Origin: JBDROU01 sp043809745 [NCBI: bacterium]
GTDB lineage: Bacteria; Elusimicrobiota; JBDRMW01
Assembly: GCA_043809745.1 (NCBI GenBank)
Contig: JBDROU010000068.1
Location: 1-45,458, forward strand
Direction of reading: 5' to 3'
Length of the DNA: 45,458 bases
Part shown: one piece after another, positions 1 through 14,624 of the stretch
How the letters are laid out: the number at the start of each line of letters is the position of its first letter
Numbering within the stretch: the stretch's first letter is position 1
Made by a program: the position numbers and the translations under genes
Notes under the pieces: model-generated
What the model was told of the DNA's origin: nothing
Database searches by the model: none
Seen by the model: only the letters and a program-made list of their open reading frames with translations

Positions 1-3000
1 CATTGCCTGCTACATCTGTAGCCTTCATCTTTACCAAATACTGAAGTCCGTTTTGAAGCGCCGGTGCTGTGCTTATCCATATGTTGCTCTCGCTGTTTGT
101 CATGTCCAGAAACTCCTCGCTGGTTGCGCTGAATGTCGAAGCGCTCTCCTTCCACCAGTTGCCGCTTGCTACCTCTTTAATTGAGAACCGCACCAAGCTT
201 ACCCCGGCCAGCGAGTCCGTCGCTGTTCCCGATATTGTTAATAAAGTATTTGTTGTGTTGTTATAATATCCCCCGCTTGTAGGCCTTGTAACCACACTTG
301 TCGGTTTAATTACATCGTAAGTAAATGCTGTTCCGCCTTTAACAGACGCGTTCTCCACATTCCCGGGAGTATCTACACCGCGTGACTTTATAGTATATGT
401 ATAATTATGATTCCATATTAAATCCCCGCTCCCGGGCACAGTATACGTCCAGGTACTGCCGCTGAGTGATGAATGATGAACATACACAGGACTCCCGCTG
501 GACACCCAATTGGCTGTTCCGTCCCCATCCCACCAGTAACTGTCACCGCTTCTCCGTATCGACACCTCAACATAATCCATCCCGGATGTGGCGTCTGTCA
601 CAGTACCGGACAGCACAGGCATACTCTTGGAATATGTTGTTGAAGGAACAATAACATCGGATACCGGCGGTGTATTATCAAATGTAAATGTAGAACTCCT
701 TATATGATACGGGCTCTCCCAGTTTGACGGGTTTGAGTTGTCTCTGGATTTTGTTGTACTGTAATAAGAACTGCCTGATGTCAGATTCCCTGTACTGATG
801 GATGTGTAATACCAATCTGAGGCTGAACCTCCTACAGCATTCCAAACAGCTGCCCCATCTGAGCTGAATGCATTCAGGTCCCACCAGTAGTTATCTGAAT
901 TCCTGCGCACCGCTATCTGCGTCTCCAGCATAACCCCTCCTTCTCCATCACCATTATCCGATGCCGTTCCTGAAATCGTTGTAAGGCCTTTTATTGTGCT
1001 GTCATCCACCGGATACTGCACCAAAGATTCCGGAGCCTTCTTATCATGTATAAATGTTATTGTAGAATATACAATAGTATAATTGCCCGCGTTATCTAAC
1101 GCCCTCGCCTCCACTCTGTACTCATTGCCCTGATCTACGGCTCCCCATATTGTGGGCGTATATGTGGCATACCATACGGCCCAAGTAATCGACGGTGTAG
1201 CTACATTCCAGGCGCTATTGGGATCTGTCTCGCTGAATGATATCCCGTTCCAGTATTTATAGTGTACATTTGCGCTGTATATCCTTAACTGAACTTCCGC
1301 GATTTCAGAGTCTTCAGTCCCGCCGCTTGTATCATTGCTCGTACCCGATATTGAGATAAGTCCTGAATAACGGTCTGCTTCCACAGGAATAACTATATCA
1401 ACCGTCGGACCGTAGTTATCATATGTAAATGTATGCTCCTGCGCCGGCGATTCTATAACATTTGCTCTGTCTATCGCCTGTGCCCTGACCTTATAACTTA
1501 CACCGTTTTGCCAGGTGGGTGTTGAACCTGTGAAATACCAGTTCGCCGTATTTGCTCCGGGTGTTACGTTGCTGGCATCTATCCATATCTCAGAACCCAC
1601 CTGAAATTGCTCGCTGCCGCTGTTCCAGTAATTATTGCTGCCCGGGCTCTTCTCTATAGATAACTGCACTTTACTTAATCCTGAATGATTCCCAGTTGTA
1701 TTCTCCGCCGCGGTTCCGGAAATCGTTTCCAGACTGCTTAAATATGAAGACGCGGGCTTTTGTATTGTAGATGTTGGAAACTGCACATCATATGTAAACT
1801 GAGTTGTTGTATGGTTACACAGATTCCCGGCCTTGTCCAATGCTCTTGCGTATATAACATATACTTTATTTCCATCCCAGTTAGGCGTATCCGTATACTC
1901 CCATGGATTGGTCGCTGCCGCCACCACCCAGGTAGACACACCTATAAATGAAGAACCGTTCCAGTAGTTGCTCCCGTCCTTGATGCTTATCTGCACTTCA
2001 GATACGCCGGAATGGGTATCCACGCTCGTTCCTGAAATTGTGGCAAGTGTTCTTCCTGTACCTCCATAGTATTCATCTGTCACCGGCAGAACAACCACAG
2101 GCGTTGAATCCACATTATCATAATTGAAACTTATAACCTGGGGATATCCTTCGGAGTTCCCCGCAAGATCAACTGCGGCAGATCTTATATAATAATTTAC
2201 TCCTTCAGTTAACTGAGGCGGGCTGTCGCCTCCTGTAGGATACTCCCAGGTAACAGTCCCGGTTACACCGGATTTACTGCAGTTTAAATTACTTACGGCA
2301 GCAGAACTCCAAGCTGAACCTGTCCAATAATAAGTATCGCCATCAACGTAATATATTCTTATTGTAATATTATCTAATCCGGACAAATCCGCATTTGAAG
2401 TACCTGAAATTGTTGGCAGTTCTGATACATAACTGCCTGCCTGAGGCAGTACAACCCTTGATACAGGTGTTGAATCATCAACAATGAAATCAATATAGGT
2501 AGACTGTTCTTCAACATTTCCATCAACGGTAGCCTTTGGTATATTAGCCTTATCATATGCTCTTGTTCTAACCTTATAATTCTTATCACTGACCCAATCA
2601 GCTTCATCAAACGGGAAATGCCAGTTATCGGTGCTTATCGCTTGAGCATAAGTGGTACTCGGTATTGAGTTGCTGAACACATCTGTATCGGGATCCCAGT
2701 AATAACTTGTCCCTCCATCTAAATAAAGAAGCTGGACCTCAACACTGTCCAGATCAGCGCAGTACGGTGAATATGGATCTACGGCTGTCCCTACTATTGC
2801 ATTAGTGCCATTTAAATCGTTTGGCTTATATTTCCCGTTTTGATCAATATTTGTAATTACAGAAATGGGTGGGTCAGTGTCATAAGTAAACGTAACCGAA
2901 GATTGCGAAATTGTAAATAAACTCTGCTGATTACCGGCCTTGTCAACCGCTTTTGAAACAACCGTATAAGTTCTTGAAGATGAAAATACCAGATTGCTAT

Positions 3001-6000
3001 GAGTGTAATACCAGTTTGAAGTACTGTTTACTACATTCCAGTATTCTTCATACTGATACCTTCCTGTACCGGAGTCATAATCACCGTTCCAGTATTTTTG
3101 GGTGTAATTATTGAATATCCTTAATTTAACCTGATATAATTTATCTCCTGAACCGAAATCAGCGGCTGTACCGGAGATAGTAGTCAGGGTTCTTAAAAAT
3201 TGGTTATGAATAGGCTGCTGAATAGCAGCTGTAGCTTTTTGTATATCGTATAGAAAAGTTGATGGTCCGCTTTGAACAGTACCTGCATTTACAGCTTTGT
3301 CAACCGCTTTAGTATTAACTGTATATTCCACATCATTAGTCCATATATCACTTTCAACGGCAATTGAATACTGCCAGGGATTAATACCTGTCACGCCTTC
3401 TGATTCACCCAGATATGTCTCACCAACCTCCCAGCTGTCGCCATCCCAGTAATTATTATCTGACAATCTGTTAATTGAAATATTCACATAATCTACCTGA
3501 CCCGGGCTGTCATCGGTAGCCGTACCTGAAAGCAGTGTCAACGTATTATAATAACCATCATCCTGGGGCAACTCAACTCCTCCGGTTGGCTTAGTTTTAT
3601 CTATCCAGTAATTATTACCGGCTCCTTCGGTTTCTACCTGCTCTCCCGGAGAGTGAGCTCTTGATTTTGCATTATATCTGTACCCGTCCACCATCCAGGT
3701 ATCTGTGGAAAAAGTAAATGTCCAGGAATTTCCTACCGGGCTTATACCGGTATTCCAGGTTAGTGTTGAACTCCACTGTTCTGAGCTGTTAATCCAGTAC
3801 TGAGGTGTAGTACCTCCTTCTATCCTCGTTATTAAGACATCAATACTGGATGCGTTTGAACAGTTGCCCTGTACCCAGGAAAGCGTGTTCTTATAAGTAT
3901 TATGAGCTGGGGATGTTACATTGCTTGTCGGAGCAGGCTCTGTAAAATTAAAAGTGTTGCCGGCTTCACGATCTACCACTGCCGTAATATTCCCGGCTTT
4001 GTCAAGCGCTCTGGATTTAATAGTATAAGTATAAGGAGGCACGTGCGCTGACCAAATATCACCCACAACATAAGTCCAGGTAGCTATATTCACATGATTA
4101 ACAATACCGGAAGAAAGCCATACCTCCTCAGCGCTGGTAAAACCCTCCCCGTCATAATAAAGTCCTGTATTATCATTATCCTTTATACAGACTTGAACCA
4201 CATCCAACTGTCCCGGTGTTTCTTCATAAGCAGTACCTGAGAGTGTAGGCAGACTTGGTATGTCAGCACTGTCCGCAGGCAGTATAGTCAGAGAAAGAGG
4301 TTCATCGGTATCAAAAGTAAAAGTGTTCGTGCTTAAAGTGGTTTCAACATTTCCTACCACATCAACAGCTTTAACGCAAATATCATAAGTTACATTATTC
4401 GTCCAATCATTATCGTTGAAAGTAAATGTCCAGGGATTTGTACTCACGCATGCATTCATATACTGAGTAGTAGCTGTAGTAAAATCTGATCCGTTCCAAT
4501 ATTTTGTAGTAGTTCTATTATATATTGATATAAATACACTTTCCACAGTAGACCTGTATGTATTGGGGTCGTTTGAAGTTCCTGAAATTGTCTCTAATGA
4601 GTTTTTGAATCCATTATGAGCCGGCAGCACTACCGCAGAATCCGGTTGTGAATTATCGAAAATAAAGTTAATTTGTGCCGGAGTCTCCTCGTTAGATGCG
4701 TAATCAAGCGATTTGCTGTAAATAGTATATTGATAGTTATTGCTCCAGGCGCCGCTTAACTCAGCCCCGGTATAATACCAGGTATAGGTTTTTGTTACAG
4801 GATCATCTACACTTAAGATAGCTATAAAAGGATAATTAGGATCGGCTCCCTGCCATGCCGAACCGTTCCAGTACTGATTATCAGACCTTTTTATATTAAC
4901 CCGTATTTCCTGTATGCCGGAAGAACCTGTACCATCCGAAGCGGTTCCGGAAATTGTTGTGAATCCAACCTTTTTATAACCTTCATCGGGAGGATCAATA
5001 ATAAGTGAAACCGGATCCTGACTATCATATGTGAACTCAACAGGAGCGTTAGCTGTAAAATCCGGGTCTGGATTTTCATTACCTGCTTCATCATTGCCGC
5101 GCGTCCAGATACGGTAGCTTTGGTTATTATTCAAATTAGGTAAATCTATGTGCCATGTTGCAGTATCATTAACCGCAACCCATACTGAAGGCAGAGTAGT
5201 TGAAGAGGTAAATGACCCGGGATAATTACCATCCCAGAATGAACCGAGTGTTTGATTCTTCAATACCGCTTCAACGGTATCTATGCCGCTAAAAAGTTTT
5301 CCGCCTCCCGGATTATCAGTTGCTGTCCCCGAAATTGTAGCCAGCGCAGATGAGCTATAGCTGTTATTATCAACTGGCAGTGTTATCAAACTGGTAGATA
5401 CATAATTATCATAAACAAATTTATACTCATCCCCAGGGAGCTGCGTATTACTTGCCCTATCAATTGCTCTGGACACTACCGTAAACTCCTCACCGTTTAT
5501 CCAGGTTACGCTTGAACAATCCTGCGTCCAGTTCCCTCCGGAATATGTAGCTTTTGTATAAACAGCTGTATCTTCGTCAAAATCCACATCTGTTATGCCA
5601 TCCCACCATTTCCCGCCGCTCACCCTTTGGATAGCTATTTCCACATAATCAATATCCGATTTAACTGTATAAGGATCATTTGCGGTTCCTGAGAGCTGTT
5701 CGATTGTTTTATAATATGAAGTAGAAGGTATTATCAAACCTGAAGCGGGCTCCGATGTGTCATACTTAAATGTATTGGAGCTTGAGTATATAATATTTCC
5801 CGCAACATCCCTTGCCCTTGCGCTTACCTGATACTGCCTCTGATCCTTCCATACAAGATCCCCGTCAGTATAAGTCCAGTTCGGCGTATCTGCTGTAACA
5901 ACATAATTAACCGTGGCTGTAAATGTAGAGCCCTCGAAATACTCATCAGGGTTTGAAGAAATATCTACTACAAAAATCTCAATTTGGGAAATTGTAGATG

Positions 6001-9000
6001 GATTTACTCCGGGATCGCTTGCTGTACCGGAAATTGTAACAAGAGTCTGCCCTGCATCATTATAAAATTGTCCTTTTGGTGATTGAAGATATATCTGAGG
6101 TGTAGTTGTATCAAATTTTACATCGAATGAAGCAGGCGATTCTTCCTCATTACCGGCATTATCCGTAACTTTGGAAGTTATTCTGTAAATTGTATCAGTC
6201 ACCCATGAAGGCACTGTAGTTGTATACCACTCAGTTCCACCTGCAATTTCAGTTGTATCCAACCAAAAAATATCTGAATCCCAAACTGCCCCTGTCCAAT
6301 AATAGTTATCCGCCGGATTGGCTATCCTTTTAATGGTAACCTGAACCTGGTCTGTTCCGGAAAGATCAGCGTTAGCTGTACCAGAAATAGTCGGCAGCGC
6401 ATTGACTGTTGAATTTGAGGGTACAGTTATGCCCGAAAGTGGAGCTGTATTATCTACAATAAAGCTTCTGAATCCTGTCCAATTACCTATGCTGCTGTTT
6501 AATGTACCATCCCCTAATGTCGCGTCATCCCTTGCTCTTACCTTCACCCTGAAATTCTGGTCTCCAGGATAGCTCCACTGGGTCGCGTTTGGCATAGCAA
6601 GAAAATTCCAGCTGGCTCCGTTAGCGGTCAGGGTAGTAACAGTCAATGTCCAGGTGGAACCGTTCCAGTAGTATGTACTGCCTCCGCTTAAGAAACTCAT
6701 TTGGACATCAATACCGTCTATTAATAGATCAGCTTTATTTGTATCCGGTTTATCCTGCGCCGTTCCAGAAATGCTGGCAGCGTTTACTGCAGCTGGTGTA
6801 TATTTTTCGCCTTCTGTTGGCGAAGTAATTCCTGATAGCGGTCCTTCTTTATCAACAGTTATTGTTAATGAAGAAAGCCCTACCTGGAAGTTTGTTTGAC
6901 TGTTGTTCGCTTTATCCTTTGCTTTGGTCCACATTGAGTATTTACTGCCGCTGGCTAATAAATCGTTAAACCCGGCGGGTGAAAACACCCAGGAGGATGT
7001 ATACATGGTACATGAGTGCCATTGAGACTGCGACCCTGTAAAATCGCTCCCGTTATAATAACCGCCTGTTGTAATATTCTGTATTGTTATATACACACTG
7101 GTGGAATTACTGGCAAAATAGCCGCTTAAGCCCCCGTCAGGATCAGGATCCGCTACTGTACCGGAAATCGTGTTTAATTCGCTTACGAAAAGATCAGCCA
7201 CAGGCAGCACAATTGCTGCTGTCGGTTTAGCTACATCATATATAAACTCTTTTTCAAAATTCGGCTCGTTTTCAGCCTTATCTTTAACATACATTTTTAT
7301 TTTATATTTTCGGCCGTTGACCCATGGGGTATCCGAACCTATATCCCCATCTGTATATGTCCAATTTGGGCCGTCCTGTGAAGCTGCAAGAAAGCTCCCC
7401 GTACCTGCAGGCACAAATGTACTGGTAGCTGTTTTCCACTCAGCAGCATCAACACTCCTGATTATCTTATAATTAATTGGATCAGTATCATTTAAGGCTC
7501 CGGGAGAATTATCTGATGCGGTGCCGTAAATTGTTGTTAATGTATTCGTAGAAGTTGAAATATCATATATTGGACTGCCGGACGGATTGGTATCATCTAT
7601 AACGAACTCCCGGTACTCAAAAGGTGATGCCTCAGGAGTAGCATCGAAAAACGCTTTGGATTCTACCTTATATAAGAATCCCTCATTCCACTCGCCTGCG
7701 CTCATACCGAATGTCCAGTCCGGATTCACATAGGTATCCACACCCACAAATGTATCTCCTGTTTCCCAGGAGTCGCCGTCCCAGTAATATGTAGTTCCGG
7801 TATCAATGTACGATATCCTTAATTGCGCGGTTGTTGCTGTGGTAGCTGTACCTGTTATTAATGTAAGCGCGGCTGATTTGAAATGCGGCGTACCAACACC
7901 CGGATATTTTATAGCTGACTCCGGAACAGGTGAAGGAACCGTAACTTGAACCCTTGCGGTGCCAAACGCGGCCGAGCCCGGTATACTGCTTACATTCTGA
8001 GCTTTATCCTTAGTCTTTGCATATATTTGATATGTCTGGTCATTATTAAAGGAAGGTACTGAAGAACCAGTAACATACCAGTCGGTGCCGGATAACTCTG
8101 CAGGCACATATGCCCCTGCTGGAGGGCTGTTTGGATCGCCGGCTAATGTGAAAGTTTTGGGCCCCGGGTCCCAGAATTTTGTGTCCGTATTGCTGTAATA
8201 AGCTACCTTTACTTCAGTTACACCGGCTCCCTGACCCGCAAATCCATTAGCATCATTTGCCGTGCCGGAAATGGTTGTAAGCTCATTGGTGTTCTCAAAA
8301 GGATAGGTTATAACCGCAACCGGTGCGGTTGTATCTATAACAAAAAATCTCGCATTGGAATCCGCATCGCTCACATCATCATTGATTTTATTAGACGCAT
8401 CCTCCCAATTTCCCAATTTATCATTATTCTCATCAAGCCCGTTATCCACAGCGCGTGTTCGGACCCTTATCTTCCTTCCCGCGGATGATATATAATTCGC
8501 CACAGGTATACTTCTGTACCAGGGAAGCCCGTCAATAAGCACATCATGAGTACTCTCTAAAATAGTGTAAGAGTCAAACTGAAAAGTAATGGGATTAAAC
8601 CATAAATCATCGCCTCCGCCGGATACACCGTTCGGCCCCAAATCAACAACTTCTATTAATACCTTCCATAACCCTGCGCCGCCGGTTGTCGGGTAATCGA
8701 TAGCTGTTCCAGAAATAGTAGGAAGTGTATTACCGCTTTTGTTAAAATAGCTGCCGCTATCAGCCCACTCTACACTGGGCACTGTAATGGTGGACGAAGG
8801 CTTAAGAGACTCGTAATTAAACTGCCTTACAATCGTGGTTGAGTCACCTATATTCTGGTATGTTAAATCCGGTTTTGTAACGTTATCAAATGCCCAGTTC
8901 CATATCTTAAAAGTATCGCTGGATGTATTAAAGAAGGCATCCTCATCAAAACTTAAACTCCAATCAAGCCCGCTTAAGTTCGCGGTATTGGTTGCAACAG

Positions 9001-12000
9001 CGCTCTGCCATGAAGCCGTGGCCTGCTTCCACCACTTATCATCAGATGTTCTCTGTATCTTGATCTTTACTCCGCTTGACGGTATACCTGATTGTTTCCC
9101 CGTTAAAGGATAATCCTTAGCTGTACCTGATATTACAGAAAGCTTTTCTACATAGGTAGATCCGTCTGATGGGGGATGAACAACATCTACTTGAGGCGCT
9201 GATTCATCATACTTAAACTGCACAGTAGTACTATACTGCAACACATTCCCGGCGACATCTATAGCTCTTACCTTAAGACTAAACTCCTGCCCGTTAGCAG
9301 CCGCAAAATTTATACCTGTCGCAAGCCAAATTTCGTAAGGGATAGTGGTTGTAGTACCCGCAACATTCCATTTATCCGTATCCGGAAACGGGTCATACCA
9401 GGTCTCTGTATCAGAGTTCCAATAGGCATCGGCCGCATAAGTAAGAGAATATTCAACATAATCAATACCAGAATGAGAATCCGAAGATGTCCCGGAAATT
9501 GTGGCCAAAGAATCAGCCCCGTAGGAATATGACGGCTCACTATGCTCAGGATACACAATAGCCACATCCGGATCTATCTCATCATAATAGAAGTACCCGT
9601 TTTCAACCGGGCTTCCTTCGCTTCCGTGCTGGTTCCCGGCAGCATCTTTTGCATACATCTCAACATGATACCAGTATCCGTTCTGCCAGTTTGTAGTAGA
9701 TACATCTATATACCAGGCAGCTGTACTTACTGACGGAGTAATCTCCTTCTCATGCCAGTTCCACAGCGGGCTTCCGCCCTGTTCTGTAATTTTAAGATAC
9801 ATATATCTTTTACCTATAACATTATCCACCACATTATCGGAGATTGTACCGGAAATTGTAGTAAGCGAATTTTTCCAGGTGGCATTAGGCACATCAGGCC
9901 CTAACGGATTAGGGGGAGAAATAAATGCGACAGTCGGCCTTGACACATCATAATAAAACTCCCTCTCTGTTGCCGAAGCTGTGCTCATCTGCACCAGATC
10001 ATCTGTAGCTCTAATCATTATCCGGTATTTACCGCCATTTGTAAAACTCGGCCATTCTCCATCAGTATTAAATAAATTAAACGTTGCAGGAGTTACATTA
10101 TCGGGCTCTCCGACCGGTGTATCACCGGGTGAATCAAACCAGTTTATTGCACCCGGGGCGCTCCATCCAGAACCGGTCCAGGTATAATCATCCGCGGTTT
10201 CCACAGTACCTCTGGTATCCGCAACAAACAGCTCAATAGTATTCACACCGCTGGCATCTATATCCGAAGCCGTACCCGCTATAGCAGAGAATGATGTCCC
10301 CTGACTGGAATTTGCGGCTGGCTGTGTAAAACTCACAAGAGGGGCTTTTTTATCTATTGTCATCTGCACGTCCGATGTAACAGGCCCTATGCCTTGATCT
10401 GAGGATTTTCCTCTAACCTCAATTTTATATTCATGTACATCCTCCTGATAAGCCGCACCCCAGGCTGTATACTGCCAGGTGGAGCTTGAAGGGTTTGTTG
10501 GCGCAACATTAAGCCACATATCAGCAGATGTCCAGCCTGAACCTGTAAAAGTATACCCGTCATCACCTCCATTAGGATCGTTCTCGAGCGTTATCCTTAC
10601 CTGGGCTACACCAGTCTCAGCAGGCGAAAAAACAGGATTAATGCCGGCCGTACCATTTATTATAGCCACACCGCTTGAATAATTAACCGAAACCGGCTCG
10701 ATGATACCTGAAATCGGTACGGTTATAATAAAAGATGAAATTATTACATTGGTATTCTGGGCGTCAGGATTCGTCAATCTTATATCTTTATATCCTGCAG
10801 CGACATTGTTGCTCACGGAAAAAGTAATTGTCCCGCTGCTGGCTGTATGATATGTAGCGGAAGAAACGCTTATATTCGGATCCGGCGTAGTGGTCCCGCT
10901 TAAAAAGAACGCAGCGCTTATATTCCCGAATGATTGATCCTGAAAACCCTCACCGTAAAATTCAACATCACCTGAAAAACTCGCTCCTACTGAAGAAGGA
11001 TCTGTCTCTTCCTGCGGGTCTTTTATATAATCCAAACCTGGCGGATCGTATGTTGAGGTTACTATATAATCAAAATAAATATTCGTCCCATATTCATAAA
11101 CAACAGGAAGCGGCTTAGGCGGTTCCAATCCCTGATATATAACATTCGGCTTATCACCTCCTCTGGGAGCCCATTTATTTGATGCTAATTCGGATATGGT
11201 AGTATGATATCCATCCCCGCCGTTATATGCAACTTTGAAAACGCGGATTATCGAACTTGAATCGCAGGCTACCACATAGACATCATCCTGCTCGTCTAAT
11301 CCAGCCAATGCAACACTTATGTTTTCCCATGGTGTATCAACATTGTTAATTAATTTTCGACCGGCATCACTCCCGTCCTCTTTTCTTTCGCTGTAATAAA
11401 GATTATTATCATCTCTGCAGAATGCTGTAAAAACCCTGCCGTCCTGATCCGGCGAGGCAACACCCGGAAGCATATAGTCCGGATCACCAGCAATAGGAAC
11501 TTTTGTCATTTCCCGCTTAGCACCCCAAATAAAAGATGTACTCAATGGATAAATGTTGCATGTATCAACCCTCATTTGAAGAACTCCTATATCCCCGCTT
11601 GCAGAGATTGGGAATATGGCTCCTTCATCAGCTCCCAAATTTGCATCATCCCCTACAGGGCATTCGGTTGGCGAAGCAAAATTGCTGAAACTCGTCCCTC
11701 TTGTTACACCGGTTCTGCTTTTATTTATTTGGTTGAACTCCCTGTAACCCCAGGCGATCCAAATACCTCCGTCACCGGAATTATAAGTTATAGTCGGGTA
11801 AGTAGGGTTCTGTATTATATCCTTCCCGTCATTCTTTGTCAGATCCCTTGTTTCGGTAGTACTGGTCTGCCAGGTTATTGACCCATCAGAAGTTAAAAGT
11901 CCTCTTCTGCAGTACAAATAAGAAGCATCATATTGAACAGAAGGATAGGTTGCAGGGTCGCATACAACATACACCTGCGATGAACTCGCCACATACCAGA

Positions 12001-12328
12001 CCGAACCGTTGCCGCCTTCAAGGGCTGTATCATTCATAACCTCTACCGGTTCATCCCAACTGTTGAAATCAAAATACCTGTATGAAAATGTGCCGTCGTT
12101 GTTGTAAAACACCCATATGCCCCAACCGTTCTGGACTATATTTCTTGCATAAGAATAATGTGTAAAACCGGTTCCTAAATCCGTAGCAGAATTTAGTTTT
12201 TGTAAATTTGCAGTTATGATCAAAATAGCAATAGCAAAGATAAAAAAACAAGAAATTATTCTCTTGCTGAGTTTGCGGTCTTCTATTATTGAATAGGCAT
12301 TTTTTATAAGACTTTTGTTAAATCCCAT
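1..12328 (-). CDS. Giant secreted Ig-like repeat surface protein (3' end outside window)
   Basis: The frame is open from an ATG at 12328 to the left edge: at least 4,109 codons, no stop seen. Residues about 24-42 form one hydrophobic segment after a basic N-terminus, so it is a signal peptide or anchor. Residues about 50-430 are non-repetitive and rich in W/Y/G, possibly a beta-propeller-like head (inference). Residues about 440-525 look like an IPT/TIG-type Ig domain (a G-x-G-F turn). The rest is about 29 Ig-like units. Each has an ISGTAxD-type opening, a YWNG/YWDG-W core, a closing RAxDxAGN motif and an FxYDxxxP linker. This is typical of cell-surface adhesins or matrix proteins. It starts 3 bp after the lipoprotein stop, so the two are almost certainly cotranscribed and coupled. 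The C-terminus, and so the anchoring or secretion system, is not visible. Family and surface location are confident; function is not known. Confidence 0.9.
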   Translation of the reverse strand, partial: MGFNKSLIKNAYSIIEDRKLSKRIISCFFIFAIAILIITANLQKLNSATDLGTGFTHYSYARNIVQNGWGIWVFYNNDGTFSYRYFDFNSWDEPVEVMNDTALEGGNGSVWYVASSSQVYVVCDPATYPSVQYDASYLYCRRGLLTSDGSITWQTSTTETRDLTKNDGKDIIQNPTYPTITYNSGDGGIWIAWGYREFNQINKSRTGVTRGTSFSNFASPTECPVGDDANLGADEGAIFPISASGDIGVLQMRVDTCNIYPLSTSFIWGAKREMTKVPIAGDPDYMLPGVASPDQDGRVFTAFCRDDNNLYYSERKEDGSDAGRKLINNVDTPWENISVALAGLDEQDDVYVVACDSSSIIRVFKVAYNGGDGYHTTISELASNKWAPRGGDKPNVIYQGLEPPKPLPVVYEYGTNIYFDYIVTSTYDPPGLDYIKDPQEETDPSSVGASFSGDVEFYGEGFQDQSFGNISAAFFLSGTTTPDPNISVSSATYHTASSGTITFSVSNNVAAGYKDIRLTNPDAQNTNVIISSFIITVPISGIIEPVSVNYSSGVAIINGTAGINPVFSPAETGVAQVRITLENDPNGGDDGYTFTGSGWTSADMWLNVAPTNPSSSTWQYTAWGAAYQEDVHEYKIEVRGKSSDQGIGPVTSDVQMTIDKKAPLVSFTQPAANSSQGTSFSAIAGTASDIDASGVNTIELFVADTRGTVETADDYTWTGSGWSAPGAINWFDSPGDTPVGEPDNVTPATFNLFNTDGEWPSFTNGGKYRIMIRATDDLVQMSTASATEREFYYDVSRPTVAFISPPNPLGPDVPNATWKNSLTTISGTISDNVVDNVIGKRYMYLKITEQGGSPLWNWHEKEITPSVSTAAWYIDVSTTNWQNGYWYHVEMYAKDAAGNQHGSEGSPVENGYFYYDEIDPDVAIVYPEHSEPSYSYGADSLATISGTSSDSHSGIDYVEYSLTYAADAYWNSDTETWYDPFPDTDKWNVAGTTTTIPYEIWLATGINFAAANGQEFSLKVRAIDVAGNVLQYSTTVQFKYDESAPQVDVVHPPSDGSTYVEKLSVISGTAKDYPLTGKQSGIPSSGVKIKIQRTSDDKWWKQATASWQSAVATNTANLSGLDWSLSFDEDAFFNTSSDTFKIWNWAFDNVTKPDLTYQNIGDSTTIVRQFNYESLKPSSTITVPSVEWADSGSYFNKSGNTLPTISGTAIDYPTTGGAGLWKVLIEVVDLGPNGVSGGGDDLWFNPITFQFDSYTILESTHDVLIDGLPWYRSIPVANYISSAGRKIRVRTRAVDNGLDENNDKLGNWEDASNKINDDVSDADSNARFFVIDTTAPVAVITYPFENTNELTTISGTANDANGFAGQGAGVTEVKVAYYSNTDTKFWDPGPKTFTLAGDPNSPPAGAYVPAELSGTDWYVTGSSVPSFNNDQTYQIYAKTKDKAQNVSSIPGSAAFGTARVQVTVPSPVPESAIKYPGVGTPHFKSAALTLITGTATTATTAQLRISYIDTGTTYYWDGDSWETGDTFVGVDTYVNPDWTFGMSAGEWNEGFLYKVESKAFFDATPEASPFEYREFVIDDTNPSGSPIYDISTSTNTLTTIYGTASDNSPGALNDTDPINYKIIRSVDAAEWKTATSTFVPAGTGSFLAASQDGPNWTYTDGDIGSDTPWVNGRKYKIKMYVKDKAENEPNFEKEFIYDVAKPTAAIVLPVADLFVSELNTISGTVADPDPDGGLSGYFASNSTSVYITIQNITTGGYYNGSDFTGSQSQWHSCTMYTSSWVFSPAGFNDLLASGSKYSMWTKAKDKANNSQTNFQVGLSSLTITVDKEGPLSGITSPTEGEKYTPAAVNAASISGTAQDKPDTNKADLLIDGIDVQMSFLSGGSTYYWNGSTWTLTVTTLTANGASWNFLAMPNATQWSYPGDQNFRVKVRARDDATLGDGTLNSSIGNWTGFRSFIVDNTAPLSGITVPSNSTVNALPTISGTANADLSGTDQVQVTIKRIANPADNYYWTGAVWDSDIFWLDTTEIAGGTEWYTTTVPSWVTDTIYRITSKVTDNAGNEEESPASFDVKFDTTTPQIYLQSPKGQFYNDAGQTLVTISGTASDPGVNPSTISQIEIFVVDISSNPDEYFEGSTFTATVNYVVTADTPNWTYTDGDLVWKDQRQYQVSARARDVAGNIIYSSSNTFKYDTSEPASGLIIPSTSYYKTIEQLSGTANDPYTVKSDIDYVEIAIQRVSGGKWWDGITDVDFDEDTAVYTKATYSGGNWTQDCSSVTWINGEEFTVVSRAIDRASNTQLPGDEYKFVYDNYVSTSLITLPVDNNSYSSSALATISGTATDNPGGGKLFSGIDTVEAVLKNQTLGSFWDGNYPGSFTSSTTLPSVWVAVNDTATWHIDLPNLNNNQSYRIWTRGNDEAGNENPDPDFTANAPVEFTYDSQDPVSLIIDPPDEGYKKVGFTTISGTASDGTGSSGIQEIRVNIKRSDNQYWNGSAWQGADPNYPFIAILSVDDPVTKTYTWYYTGAELSGAWSNNYQYTIYSKSLDYASNEETPAQINFIFDNSQPDSAVVLPAHNGFKNSLETISGTSNDPNTYRSTVESVFISIYNRTTTKYWNGSDFTTATTQYMNACVSTNPWTFTFNDNDWTNNVTYDICVKAVDVVGNVETTLSTNTFTFDTDEPLSLTILPADSADIPSLPTLSGTAYEETPGQLDVVQVCIKDNDNTGLYYDGEGFTSAEEVWLSSGIVNHVNIATWTYVVGDIWSAHVPPYTYTIKSRALDKAGNITAVVDREAGNTFNFTEPAPTSNVTSPAHNTYKNTLSWVQGNCSNASSIDVLITRIEGGTTPQYWINSSEQWSSTLTWNTGISPVGNSWTFTFSTDTWMVDGYRYNAKSRAHSPGEQVETEGAGNNYWIDKTKPTGGVELPQDDGYYNTLTLLSGTATDDSPGQVDYVNISINRLSDNNYWDGDSWEVGETYLGESEGVTGINPWQYSIAVESDIWTNDVEYTVNTKAVDKAVNAGTVQSGPSTFLYDIQKATAAIQQPIHNQFLRTLTTISGTAADFGSGDKLYQVKLRIFNNYTQKYWNGDYDSGTGRYQYEEYWNVVNSTSNWYYTHSNLVFSSSRTYTVVSKAVDKAGNQQSLFTISQSSVTFTYDTDPPISVITNIDQNGKYKPNDLNGTNAIVGTAVDPYSPYCADLDSVEVQLLYLDGGTSYYWDPDTDVFSNSIPSTTYAQAISTDNWHFPFDEADWVSDKNYKVRTRAYDKANIPKATVDGNVEEQSTYIDFIVDDSTPVSRVVLPQAGSYVSELPTISGTSNADLSGLDNITIRIYYVDGDTYYWTGSAWSSAAVSNLNCSKSGVTGTVTWEYPTGGDSPPQLTEGVNYYIRSAAVDLAGNSEGYPQVISFNYDNVDSTPVVVLPVTDEYYGGTGRTLATISGTSVDTHSGVSEVQISIKDGSNYWNGSSFIGVSTWVVAAATNPWEYTDTPNWDGNKVYVIYARALDKAGNLCNHTTTQFTYDVQFPTSTIQKPASSYLSSLETISGTAAENTTGNHSGLSKVQLSIEKSPGSNNYWNSGSEQFQVGSEIWIDASNVTPGANTANWYFTGSTPTWQNGVSYKVRAQAIDRANVIESPAQEHTFTYDNYGPTVDIVIPVEADRYSGLISISGTSNDTSGGTEDSEIAEVQLRIYSANVHYKYWNGISFSETDPNSAWNVATPSITWAVWYATYTPTIWGAVDQGNEYRVEARALDNAGNYTIVYSTITFIHDKKAPESLVQYPVDDSTIKGLTTISGTASDNGDGEGGVMLETQIAVRRNSDNYWWDLNAFSSDGAAVWNAVGGSASDWYYTSISTGNLTSGSSYYSTTKSRDNSNPSNWESPYHIRSSTFTFDNTPPVSDVIVPSTTYSKSMPVLSGTVTDATSGMDYVEVSIRRSGDSYWWDGDGTANWVSSGSPVYVHHSSLSGSTWTYTVPGSGDLIWNHNYTYTIKSRGVDTPGNVENASVKGGTAFTYDVIKPTSVVTRPTSGGYYNNTTNTLLTISGTATDSLAGVSLVRFSIKEVASGNWWKESASTFSATSEEFLDMTNSESNIWISTAPALQNGLQYLVKMKATDVAGN
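230..10690 (-). repeat. About 29 diverged Ig-like coding repeats
   Basis: The ISGTA-type motif recurs in one frame near plus-strand positions 229, 598, 963, 1338, 1710, 2029, 2401, 2784, 3168, 3519, 3870, 4228, 4578, 4946, 5321, 5682, 6023, 6379, 6761, 7157, 7522, 7847, 8260, 8704, 9120, 9489, 9846, 10270 and 10645. Mean spacing is about 372 bp (124 residues). Units are diverged at DNA level, with a conserved pattern rather than conserved sequence, so they are old duplications and not a recent tandem expansion. The array continues past the left edge. Confidence 0.85.
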
Positions 12329-12331
12329 AAT

Positions 12332-12868
12332 TTACCTGTTTTGCTCCCGATCAATTTTAGGTTTAGCAAGCAGATCCTGTCTGATCTTCATCAACTCCAC
12401 ATACAATCCCTTCAGCTCTCCCGGAAGATTCTCATCAAATAGAACTTTCTCTTCCCTGGTGGAAGTTATTAAAAACAGTTCCTCTTCAAGTTTAGGATTT
12501 CTCTTTCGCACCGGGTTAGCATTCCAGGATATTGATATTGCCTTTTGGGCCAGCTTCTTAAACTCAGACTCTTCAAATTCCATAACAGCCGGCTCCGTTT
12601 TTTTACCGCCGAATCTTTCGATTTTTGCCTCATTTGATTTAAGCGTTACTGTTTCGAAAGCTCCGGAATCAACATTTCTTCTGATGAGCTTTAGTTCTTT
12701 GACTTCCTCGGGCTTGGATGTTAGATTTACATACTGGATAACCGGCAAGTTCTTGTGAACGGCACAGCCGTTTATCAGCAAAAGCGCAAATGCAAATATA
12801 TATGCGCTGGCCTTAAAAACACCGCATGCAAACGCGCTTATCTCAGATCCCTTAACAGCCATACGCAT
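12332..12868 (-). CDS. Small putative lipoprotein, first gene of the giant-protein operon
   Basis: This gives 178 residues from the ATG at 12868 (a second ATG at 12862 is equally possible; neither has a strong Shine-Dalgarno site). A basic start is followed by a hydrophobic stretch ending in LLLINGC, a lipobox-like site with Cys at about residue 35. The mature part is hydrophilic, charged and probably helical at the end, and I recognise no domain. The frame stays open upstream to 13189, but that would run through the terminator and riboswitch, so I reject the longer form. The stop lies 3 bp before the giant gene's ATG. By position it could be an outer-membrane or periplasmic partner (export, anchoring or control) of the giant protein; this is inference. 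Confidence 0.72.
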   Translation of the reverse strand: MRMAVKGSEISAFACGVFKASAYIFAFALLLINGCAVHKNLPVIQYVNLTSKPEEVKELKLIRRNVDSGAFETVTLKSNEAKIERFGGKKTEPAVMEFEESEFKKLAQKAISISWNANPVRKRNPKLEEELFLITSTREEKVLFDENLPGELKGLYVELMKIRQDLLAKPKIDREQNR

Positions 12869-13042
12869 ATGTGTTCTTTCTCTAACTATAAAACAATCCT
12901 TAGCCTTGCATGCGCGCTCGCTAGCTACAAAACCTGCGCAAAATGTATTAGCTATCTTGAGTACATTAATAGCTCCGCACATATGCGCGCCTAATTTAGC
13001 AGCCGCACAACCTGCATTAGCTATGCTTAACACAACTCTTTT

Positions 13043-13104
13043 AAAATAAAAAACCGGGAGCTTAAGATACTTATAACACAATAAGTACATTAAACACCCG
13101 GTTC
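13043..13104 (-). terminator. Intrinsic terminator between GEMM riboswitch 1 and the lipoprotein gene
   Basis: In the minus-strand transcript, AACCGGG (13103-13097) pairs with CCCGGTT (13058-13052). Inside, TACTTAT pairs with ATAAGTA, with a short TGTGTT loop, and the hairpin is followed directly by TTTTTTATTTT. It sits about 50 nt downstream of the aptamer and upstream of the first gene, the layout of a transcription-attenuating riboswitch. I could not identify the competing antiterminator pairing. Confidence 0.85.
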
Positions 13105-13150
13105 TCTTGGCACGTATTACTGACGTATATTTACACATACCTTTTCCCTT

Positions 13151-13254
13151 CGGCAACCCGACTGCCATGCTTAGCCTTACGGCTAACAACCCGGCTAGAG
13201 TTTAGGCTCGTAGCTTTGCGTCGCCAGCTTTCGCTGACTTTGCTATTATCGGTT
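13151..13254 (-). promoter_or_regulatory. GEMM (cyclic-di-nucleotide) riboswitch 1
   Basis: The minus-strand RNA contains the GEMM-I landmarks in order: AGCAAA, then a stem GTCAGC/GCTGGC closed by a GAAA tetraloop, then GACGCAAAGC, GCCTAAA, a second stem-loop, and a terminal CGGGTTGCCG. This matches the published Vc2-type c-di-GMP-I aptamer. The base aligned with Vc2 G20 is A; the base aligned with C92 is C. A20 with C92 is the feature described for GEMM-Ib RNAs that bind 3',3'-cGAMP, though some A20 RNAs also bind c-di-GMP. It precedes the terminator at 13043-13104 and the lipoprotein/giant-protein operon. A TTGACA lies at 13327-13322 upstream, but I see no convincing -10 at proper spacing. 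Confidence 0.88.
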
Positions 13255-13359
13255 AACTCCAATAATATTAAATCTTTTGGTTTTTTACCTTCGTTATAAG
13301 CTTAACCCCCCTTTTTAATTTTGTCAACCCCTTTTTAGTCACGTAACCATTCTGTTACA

Positions 13360-13387
13360 GGGGACGTTGTTTACAGATTGACAGTTG
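13360..13387 (+). repeat. Left inverted terminal repeat of the RAYT element
   Basis: Begins GGGGACGTTGTTTACAGAT. It matches the reverse complement of 14423-14450 with one mismatch in 28 bases. Confidence 0.88.
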
Positions 13388-13416
13388 CGCACAAAATAAT
13401 ATACACTTGCTTTACC

Positions 13417-14418
13417 ATGCCAAGGAAACCACGCATAGATTTACCAGGATATGTCTATCATGTAATAACTAGAGGTATCGAAAAACGAAAAATTTTTATT
13501 GACTCTAAAGATTATCAGGAGTTTTTGAGGAGATTTGGACTGGTACTCGAAAATGATAGAGGTAAATGTTTTGCTTGGAGCCTTATGCCAAACCATATAC
13601 ATCTTCTCTTAAGAAGCGGGCACTTTGGTATTGCCCATATGATGAGAAGTCTGTTGACGGGATATGCGGTATATTTTAATTTAAGACATAAACGAGCTGG
13701 TCACCTATTCCAAAATAGATATAAAGCCACGCTGTGCAATCATGATGAGTATTTGCATGTGTTGGTTAGATATATACATTTAAATCCATTAAATAGCGGA
13801 TTAGTGAGGGATCTTGAAGAATTGAAACTATTTCAATGGTCAGGAGACAGTGTTTTGATGGACATACGAAAATATGAATGGCAGGATACTGAATCGGTGT
13901 TAGGACTGTTTGGCAAAACGACAGATGAAGGACGGAAAGGATATCGAAGGTTTATTGCAGAAGGACTTAATTCCAAAGAATCTTTAGAGGAAAGTGGATT
14001 AGTTATGGGTAAAAAGGAATTAGATGCATTCCTTAAGTTTAAAATTAATAAAGAAAAAGAAGAATCTGATAATCGGATTTTAGCCGGCGGTGATTTTGTT
14101 CGTGAAATCAAAAAACAAGTACTTGATGATCAACCTGTTGCGCGAACTCCTAAGAAAAAAATTGAAGACATTATAAGGATTATCACTGAAATGAACTCAC
14201 TTAATAAAAATATTTTCCAGAAAAAAACTCAAAACAGAAATGTTGTATTAACAAAATCAATTATAGCGTATTATGCTCACCATATTTGTGGATATTCTCT
14301 GACTGAAATTTGCAAGGAACTTAATACTGGTTTGAGTGGAATTTGCAGACTACTTGCACGAAATAATAAAAAAATAGAAAAGTTTCCATTTGCAGAAATT
14401 GAAAAAAGATTAAGTTAG
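13417..14418 (+). CDS. REP-associated tyrosine transposase (RAYT, Y1_Tnp / TnpA_REP-like)
   Basis: 333 residues from the ATG at 13417. The product then starts MPRKPRIDLPGYVYHV, the classic RAYT N-terminus; an upstream TTG at 13378 lies inside the terminal repeat and is unlikely. The catalytic HUH motif is in MPNHIHLLL, and the candidate nucleophile Tyr is in the VRYIHLNP segment. RAYTs are single-strand DNA transposases that mobilise or process REP-like palindromes. The C-terminal about 70 residues (around YYAHHICGYSLTEIC) look like a helix-turn-helix similar to DnaA domain IV, which some RAYTs carry. The gene looks intact. The only gene between the inverted repeats, it probably acts on those ends. 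Confidence 0.93.
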   Translation: MPRKPRIDLPGYVYHVITRGIEKRKIFIDSKDYQEFLRRFGLVLENDRGKCFAWSLMPNHIHLLLRSGHFGIAHMMRSLLTGYAVYFNLRHKRAGHLFQNRYKATLCNHDEYLHVLVRYIHLNPLNSGLVRDLEELKLFQWSGDSVLMDIRKYEWQDTESVLGLFGKTTDEGRKGYRRFIAEGLNSKESLEESGLVMGKKELDAFLKFKINKEKEESDNRILAGGDFVREIKKQVLDDQPVARTPKKKIEDIIRIITEMNSLNKNIFQKKTQNRNVVLTKSIIAYYAHHICGYSLTEICKELNTGLSGICRLLARNNKKIEKFPFAEIEKRLS

Positions 14419-14422
14419 TTTC

Positions 14423-14450
14423 CAACTGTCCATCTGTAAACAACGTCCCC
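14423..14450 (-). repeat. Right inverted terminal repeat of the RAYT element
   Basis: Reverse complement of the left end at 13360-13387 with one mismatch. It starts 4 bp after the transposase stop and abuts the 3' end of GEMM riboswitch 2. Confidence 0.88.
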
Positions 14451-14458
14451 CAAAAGAA

Positions 14459-14550
14459 AACCTCCGGCAGCCCAGCCTCCTGCGTTTGTAATGCGGGACT
14501 GTGGGCTTTGCGCCCCCCGGTATACCCGAGGTTTGCTCTTGTCGGAGATT
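14459..14550 (-). promoter_or_regulatory. GEMM-type riboswitch 2 (outer aptamer)
   Basis: Minus-strand RNA. A P1 helix of 8 bp joins AATCTCCG (14550-14543) and CGGAGGTT (14466-14459). Inside are GAGCAAACC, a CCTCGG/CCGGGG stem, GGCGCAAAGCCC, and GGCTGGGCTGCC, matching the GEMM-I order GCAAA / GACGCAAAGC / GGGTTGCC. The base aligned with Vc2 G20 is A, and C92 is kept. It departs from consensus in having a GTATA-type loop instead of GAAA and GGCGC instead of GACGC. P1 is followed at once by TTCTTTT, so a ligand-stabilised P1 could itself act as a weak terminator (inference). Only the RAYT element lies directly downstream. Confidence 0.75.
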
Positions 14551-14594: not shown

Positions 14595-14624
14595 ATTCTA
14601 GCTCTTTAAACAAGCTGATGTCAA
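14595..14624 (-). promoter_or_regulatory. Sigma70-like promoter for GEMM riboswitch 2
   Basis: Reads TTGACA (14624-14619), 18 bp, TAGAAT (14600-14595) on the minus strand. The predicted start near 14588 gives an A-rich leader of about 38 nt before the aptamer. It is the best promoter in the locus and points toward the lipoprotein/giant-protein operon. Confidence 0.72.

Follow-up and report, generated by a model that had tools for sequence, protein, structure and literature searches.

Upstream of a very long repeat-protein gene, one bacterial contig carries what looks like an RNA sensor of cyclic dinucleotides, raising the questions of whether this sensor decides on the transcription of a giant surface protein and whether the same organization recurs in related genomes. 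The stretch of DNA analysed (contig JBDROU010000068.1, positions 1 to 45,458, hereafter the window, 45,458 nucleotides in length) had been described in a sequence-only reading as a GEMM aptamer followed by an intrinsic terminator, a lipoprotein gene and a giant repeat gene. The features considered here are the following.

2 to 12328, minus strand: gene of a giant repeat protein with Ig-like repeats of about 120 aa, at least 4,109 codons, running off the window end.
12332 to 12868, minus strand: small gene P0001, encoding 178 aa if ATG 12868 is the start and possibly a lipoprotein (ING-C), from translation, hexamer score and structure model.
13043 to 13107, minus strand: intrinsic terminator with a long stem and a U-run (RNAfold -29.9 kcal/mol, z -8.09, unequalled in 200 shuffles).
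13149 to 13254, minus strand: full-length GEMM-I (c-di-GMP-I) aptamer, aptamer 1 (RF01051, 70.0 bits, E 8e-12, model positions 1-87).
13244 to 13267, minus strand: putative 5' hairpin, which in the ligand-free RNA would tie up the 5' strand of P1 of aptamer 1 (minimum-energy leader folds).
13360 to 14450, no strand assigned: RAYT-like mobile element between the aptamers, with 28-nt inverted ends (inverted repeats 13360-13387 and 14423-14450, 96%).
13378 to 14418, plus strand: IS200-like Y1 transposase carried by the element and containing a DnaA-type HTH (PF01797, 1.7e-11).
14463 to 14547, minus strand: GEMM-I aptamer 2, its P1 lengthened by a long stem, with a U-rich tract behind it (RF01051, 45.8 bits, E 6.4e-06; fold).
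14595 to 14624, minus strand: promoter-like site 5' of aptamer 2 (TTGACA-18-TAGAAT, 11/12).

Both aptamers were recovered by the RF01051 covariance model above its gathering score of 35 (70.0 and 45.8 bits, the E value of aptamer 1, 8e-12, being computed over the whole window), which confirms the well-formed GEMM aptamer claimed earlier and adds a second one that the sequence-only reading did not include. A feature of GEMM-I RNAs is the GAAA tetraloop of P2, which docks into a receptor in P3. According to the Rfam alignment, aptamer 1 possesses the GAAA loop and the CUAA..AUGG strands, and aptamer 2 has neither the GAAA loop nor the CUAA strand. Inspection by eye of the aptamers surveyed indicates that GAAA loops are accompanied by CUAA as the receptor strand and that GUAA-like loops often have CCCG, a pattern that looks like co-variation of a tertiary contact.

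The ligand contacts named for Vc2 are G20, A47 and C92 (PMC4744006). These positions were transferred to the Rfam consensus using an equal spacing of 27 and the general layout of Vc2. On this mapping, we take G20 to be consensus position 12, A47 position 39 and C92 the first C of the closing CC. In both window aptamers the G20 equivalent is G, the C92 equivalent is C and the A47 equivalent, read by eye in GCAAAG, is A. Because of these three bases, c-di-GMP rather than cGAMP is predicted as the most likely ligand, so that the earlier claim of a cyclic-dinucleotide riboswitch holds as a class-I GEMM and is narrowed to one dinucleotide. A G occupies the G20 equivalent in 121 of the 123 aptamers read, those of the window included, and the other two look like offset errors of our simple reading. 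It is very improbable that the window harbours a cGAMP-sensing GEMM-Ib: the fold family is common to GEMM-I and GEMM-Ib, and an A adjoins the pocket at position 11 in both window aptamers, but GEMM-Ib is distinguished by an A in place of G20, where both have G. A cGAMP reading built on the A at position 11 was rejected, since the spacing of the contacts puts G20 at position 12. In the structure of a cGAMP switch, A14 stands directly before C15 (PMC6274999), and by our own reading of that report A14 occupies the place of G20. The G20-equivalent base is described as guiding selectivity without fully inhibiting binding (PMC9262584).

The intrinsic terminator that had been placed about 50 nt past the aptamer was found as a hairpin starting 41-45 nt past aptamer 1 (z -8.09), with no strand common to the two structures; a simple consensus scan did not list this terminator (13107-13043). 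Taken together, the leader is probably a class-I riboswitch for c-di-GMP through which premature termination governs transcription of the operon, an explanation in which ligand binding, switching and its sign, and the two-gene operon itself are the parts that we infer. RNA polymerase would copy first the aptamer (13254-13149) and next the terminator (13107-13043), and a competing pairing able to block the terminator would form or not depending on c-di-GMP occupancy of the aptamer; this outcome would settle the transcription of both the small gene and the giant Ig-repeat gene.

Upstream of aptamer 1, the leader is interrupted. The element 13360-14450 was classified as RAYT-like on the basis of a Y1_Tnp domain (PF01797, 1.7e-11) encoded by a gene lying between 28-nt inverted ends; the DnaA-type HTH of the transposase (PF08299, 1.1e-05) is under its cut-off. 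Beyond the element, the P1 extension of aptamer 2 (GAAAAUCUCCG / CGGAGGUUUUC) leads directly into the U-rich tract. Since only about 117 nt would separate the aptamers without the element, the ancestral leader probably carried tandem GEMM aptamers that were later split by the RAYT-like insertion. Promoter-like sites of all grades number 9 in the region for 6.6 +/- 2.4 expected, which is near chance. The best-scoring one (14595-14624) lies just 5' of aptamer 2; the promoter-consensus scan of the region listed no good promoter between the element and aptamer 1, and the site nearest to aptamer 1 (13423-13396, 10/12) is inside the element. The position of the element between the aptamers, with the best promoter-like site (11/12) on the far side of aptamer 2, would also fit a decaying leader, in which the insertion severed the promoter and aptamer 2 and left aptamer 1 poorly transcribed or driven by the element. 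We regard this as unlikely, however, as both aptamer 1 and its terminator have remained intact with high scores, and the site at 13423-13396 may be an outward promoter supplied by the element itself.

To place the organism, we used PurL. The best matches (63-70% identical, among the best 80 listed in genome_contigs) are mostly Omnitrophota MAGs. In a tree that took in 38 of the best 80 loci, the window adjoins 18 rows, mostly Omnitrophota but including one Ratteibacteria, one Aminicenantes-labelled and two further MAGs, and one Omnitrophota row is placed elsewhere. Because both the matches and the tree neighbours are mostly Omnitrophota, PurL assigns the window organism to Omnitrophota or a deep relative. 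GEMM-I was surveyed in the phylum sample, that of genome G010 (Candidatus Omnitrophota): it is present in 338 of 384 genomes at E<=0.001, above the cut-off in 329, and in 14 of the 20 genomes carrying near PurL genes. Several GEMMs per genome are common (16 in G099), and tandem or clustered aptamers occur in several Omnitrophota genomes (L227, L172, L164; G015:C3). GGDEF proteins were found in all of the 117 Omnitrophota genomes searched, a set other than the window genome and a result that speaks of domain presence, not of cyclase activity. From the best GEMM matches listed, 120 regions covering 121 matches were fetched, a sample thus skewed to high scores.

This sample bears on the mechanism. 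A terminator-like hairpin lies within about 150 nt past 113 of the 121 Omnitrophota GEMMs, compared with 32 of 121 random positions, and the stem reaches -12 kcal/mol or better in 94 and 17 cases, respectively. The terminators of these 121 GEMMs are of two types, 77 standing apart from the aptamer, like the one in the window, and 36 overlapping its 3' end. Terminators of the overlapping type exclude the aptamer and would thus make ON switches. Separate terminators need an antiterminator. With terminators taken outside the aptamer at 84 loci plus the window, left arms pair with their own aptamer better than with those of other loci (11 of 2000 permutations as extreme), and OFF switches of the Cd1 kind are predicted on this basis; the effect is small, with a mean gain of 0.58 kcal/mol, and in several cases the pairing partner is the P2 3' strand. 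The right arms gave no signal across loci (617 of 2000 permutations).

For the window, the position of the terminator entirely beyond the aptamer tips the balance slightly towards an OFF switch if the riboswitch works. In this version the bound aptamer would leave the terminator free, and in the unbound RNA the 3' half of the aptamer would pair with the left arm of the terminator. Neither the leader folds nor the permutation comparison gave a convincing antiterminator pairing: the left arm ranks 0.39 against other aptamers, so no clean antiterminator was found in the window, and when transcript prefixes were folded, pairing of the left arm with the 3' half of the aptamer brought only about 2 kcal/mol in comparison with shorter prefixes lacking this pairing. 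The opposite sign, in which c-di-GMP binding promotes read-through, is the less probable of the two and still a serious alternative. It is the sign of Bc2, an ON switch for a large adhesin (PMC4933901), it agrees with the adherent lifestyle being mostly favoured by c-di-GMP (review PMC6366702), and the 36 overlapping terminators among the 121 Omnitrophota GEMMs include those of giants (L214, L217, L238, L249); against it, the window terminator starts 41-45 nt past the aptamer and has no strand in common with it. According to the same review, direction is not extrapolable between species (PMC6366702). Among known GEMM-I aptamers with transcription terminators, like the one proposed here, are Cd1 of C. 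difficile and pilM of G. metallireducens; in Cd1, an OFF switch, the aptamer is compatible with the terminator, as it is in the window, whereas pilM is a cGAMP sensor of the ON type (PMC9262584). Cd1 controls the flgB operon (PMC6366702).

Past the terminator, the first gene of the putative operon is the small gene, which had been described as a lipoprotein gene. Read from ATG 12868, its product begins with a signal-like hydrophobic stretch that ends in an ING-C lipobox, and the giant frame starts 3 bp past its stop, so that the proposed order stands, but uncertainty over the start codon makes the term lipoprotein provisional; the lipobox pattern is also a loose one, with a second match elsewhere in the small protein of the window. 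The segment 12869-13036, between the terminator and ATG 12868, is coding-like and rich in Cys and Ala codons. Its in-frame hexamer score of 0.325, the other five frames being negative, compares with a coding mean of 0.44 (sd 0.13); the ORF 12868-12332 itself scores only 0.09, yet this is the best of its six frames. Possible alternative starts are ATG 12982 and GTG 13033. It is thus conceivable, with a probability that we put a little short of even, that the gene starts at one of them, just past the terminator, and encodes a longer protein that is not a lipoprotein and has an internal hydrophobic segment: the coding-like score 5' of 12868, in the same frame, argues for it, and the hydrophobic stretch ending in ING-C argues for the start at 12868. 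The structure model of P0001 has low confidence (pLDDT 62), with an N-terminal helix followed by a beta-sheet/helix domain, and gave no significant fold match (best E 0.17). The small gene had no Pfam match, no PDB match by sequence and a single weak NCBIfam match, far under its cut-off. No relatives were found in viral_contigs, in genome_contigs (a search that finds close relatives only) or in the 384 Omnitrophota genomes, the last search having no positive control. A likeness to emfourin-type inhibitors was considered and abandoned, being unsupported by the Pfam scans.

The giant repeat gene claimed 3 bp further on was confirmed as frame 12328-2(-), with at least 4,109 codons. Its product (P0002) has, by eye, a hydrophobic segment at the N terminus. 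From 18 aligned repeats, a single repeat was modelled as all-beta (pLDDT 88.8), and the top Foldseek matches of this model include Ig-like, FN3 and RbmA domains, none with E<=0.001. Profile matches point the same way at scores that are below the curated cut-offs for the families compared: Pfam Big_3_2 gave 22.5 bits, just below its cut-off of 23.3, NF047446 (OmpL47-type) gave E 1.3e-07 and 31.9 bits, below its cut-off of 40, and the match to 2yn3 is weak (E 0.0029). The entry 2yn3, which carries the database label 'putative inner membrane protein', is presumably the giant adhesin SiiE. The likeness to 2yn3 and OmpL47-type Ig-repeat surface proteins is therefore weak, and the repeat model identifies the giant as a bacterial Ig-like repeat protein, predicted to be made of tandem beta-sandwiches; it is probably a surface or adhesive protein. 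Its N-terminal 440 residues had relatives in none of the 384 Omnitrophota genomes, in a search that had no positive control, and phmmer with pieces of the giant and the small gene gave no match among the frames of the Omnitrophota loci then fetched.

Whether such genes lie behind GEMMs in other Omnitrophota was assessed on 98 GEMMs of 79 genomes that precede a clear same-strand gene, compared with 84 control transcription-unit starts. A first or second gene of at least 1000 aa follows 17 of the 98 GEMMs and 4 of the 84 controls (Fisher p 0.0065); at 1500 aa the counts are 12 and 1 (p 0.0030) and at 2000 aa 8 and 0 (p 0.0062), the p values for these three length thresholds being uncorrected. 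The 40 control regions came from genomes chosen for long contigs, and two were fully masked, so that the control rests on 38. The gene rule discarded 23 of the 121 GEMM matches because no same-strand gene was clear; these include L201 and L249, behind which frames of at least 1,578 and at least 1,263 aa do in fact follow. The giant frames counted contain at most 2 masked letters; a frame of 70,450 residues with a GGDEF domain was discarded as an artefact of a masked run.

The Pfam scan of the 98 downstream genes (the first gene, or the second if the first has fewer than 100 aa, cut to 500 aa) gave the secretion domain of two-partner secretion (TPS) proteins as the commonest family, with 9 of 98. 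In the converse direction, 88 of 285 genomes encode TPS domains. A GEMM above the cut-off precedes at least 22 of 131 TPS domains (20 genomes) by 145-547 nt on the same strand, as judged from pairs picked by eye among the GEMM matches listed for the same contig; the rough expectation is about 0.15, assuming averages of 4.3 GEMMs per 1.9 Mb genome. A GEMM-clan match above threshold accompanies only 3 of the 30 TPS loci with the best scores (1 of 20 and 2 of 10, one being RF03167), so that most of the TPS genes seen lie outside this kind of control. P0002 had no match to the TPS domain (PF05860) at E up to 0.1, and the window giant is thus not of the commonest riboswitch-linked type.

In eight loci that were inspected (L153, L163, L194, L197, L207, L222, L229 and L256), a gene of 64-586 aa intervenes between the riboswitch and a gene of at least 799 aa. 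None of these eight intervening genes has a lipobox by the loose rule that the window gene passes, and the lipoprotein pairing was for this reason not seen again. Of the leader-lipoprotein-giant layout for which a search in related genomes had been proposed, the step from riboswitch to giant does recur in Omnitrophota (12 of 98 GEMMs and 1 of 84 controls; at least 22 of 131 TPS domains), and the lipoprotein as a fixed partner, with 0 of the 8 loci inspected and no relative in the 384 Omnitrophota genomes (no positive control) or in genome_contigs (close relatives only), is so far unsupported.

The sequence-only reading had also proposed that RNA-level control of so large a protein, paired with a lipoprotein, would be a distinct layout. 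As a principle, RNA-level control of a large adhesin was already known: in B. thuringiensis, the class-I c-di-GMP riboswitch Bc2, with its terminator, controls the 202-kDa repeat adhesin Cap (PMC4933901). The window resembles Bc2/cap in its class-I aptamer, adjacent intrinsic terminator and large repeat adhesin downstream, but cap encodes a Gram-positive cell-wall protein under a tested ON switch (PMC4933901). The window protein, in contrast, is much larger, is preceded by a small gene and belongs to an uncultured phylum. The gbpA gene of Vibrio cholerae encodes another adhesin, a smaller protein than the window giant. Its leader contains Vc1, a class-I GEMM as in the window (PMC4744006), but according to a review neither V. 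cholerae class-I switch acts via transcription termination (PMC6366702), unlike what we propose.

Giant genes are likewise documented as common in several Omnitrophota classes, with roles called poorly understood and, as for the window giant, a suspected function in adhesion; some Omnitrophota are suspected predators or epibionts (PMC10066038). That paper names no riboswitch in the text available, and 'c-di-GMP' occurs 0 times in its main text. None of the literature searched joins a riboswitch with Omnitrophota; papers retrieved for riboswitch, two-partner secretion and c-di-GMP were not on this subject, judging by title and start of abstract, and those for riboswitch, 'giant protein' and c-di-GMP were on another subject by title. 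A c-di-GMP-I riboswitch with a terminator before a large adhesin, and giant genes in Omnitrophota, are already known; the novelty lies in the phylum-wide link, namely that GEMMs are nearly universal in Omnitrophota and enriched ahead of genes for giant surface proteins. We consider it fairly probable that c-di-GMP-I riboswitches form a phylum-wide Omnitrophota regulon, with giant surface proteins (TPS adhesins and Ig-repeat proteins thousands of residues long) as a recurrent and strongly enriched target. If so, an RNA switch would decide, before the giant mRNA is made, on paying for a coat for attachment or predation, and early termination in the leader would be economical for an mRNA of 12 kb and more. 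A c-di-GMP riboswitch before a share of the giants would provide a testable regulatory input for proteins of uncultured cells and suggests their likely function class, attachment and lifestyle switching.

Other genes are found downstream of Omnitrophota GEMMs. After the TPS domain, the commonest families in the scan of 98 genes were GH1 (7), pilin N_methyl (5) and DPBB_1 (4), and GH113 hydrolases, PilZ proteins and histidine kinases were also encountered. On contig C2 of genome G096 (L332-L334), a GEMM of 53.5 bits precedes genes that by eye are Tad/Flp-pilus-like, and about 10 kb further, on the same strand, begins a frame of at least 10,737 aa, counted as 42,913 aa, which holds a GGDEF match and whose fetched part is free of masked letters. 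In the leader of L153, inverted GGGACAG/CTGTCCC repeats reminiscent of REP-type mobile repeats lie between the riboswitch and the gene.
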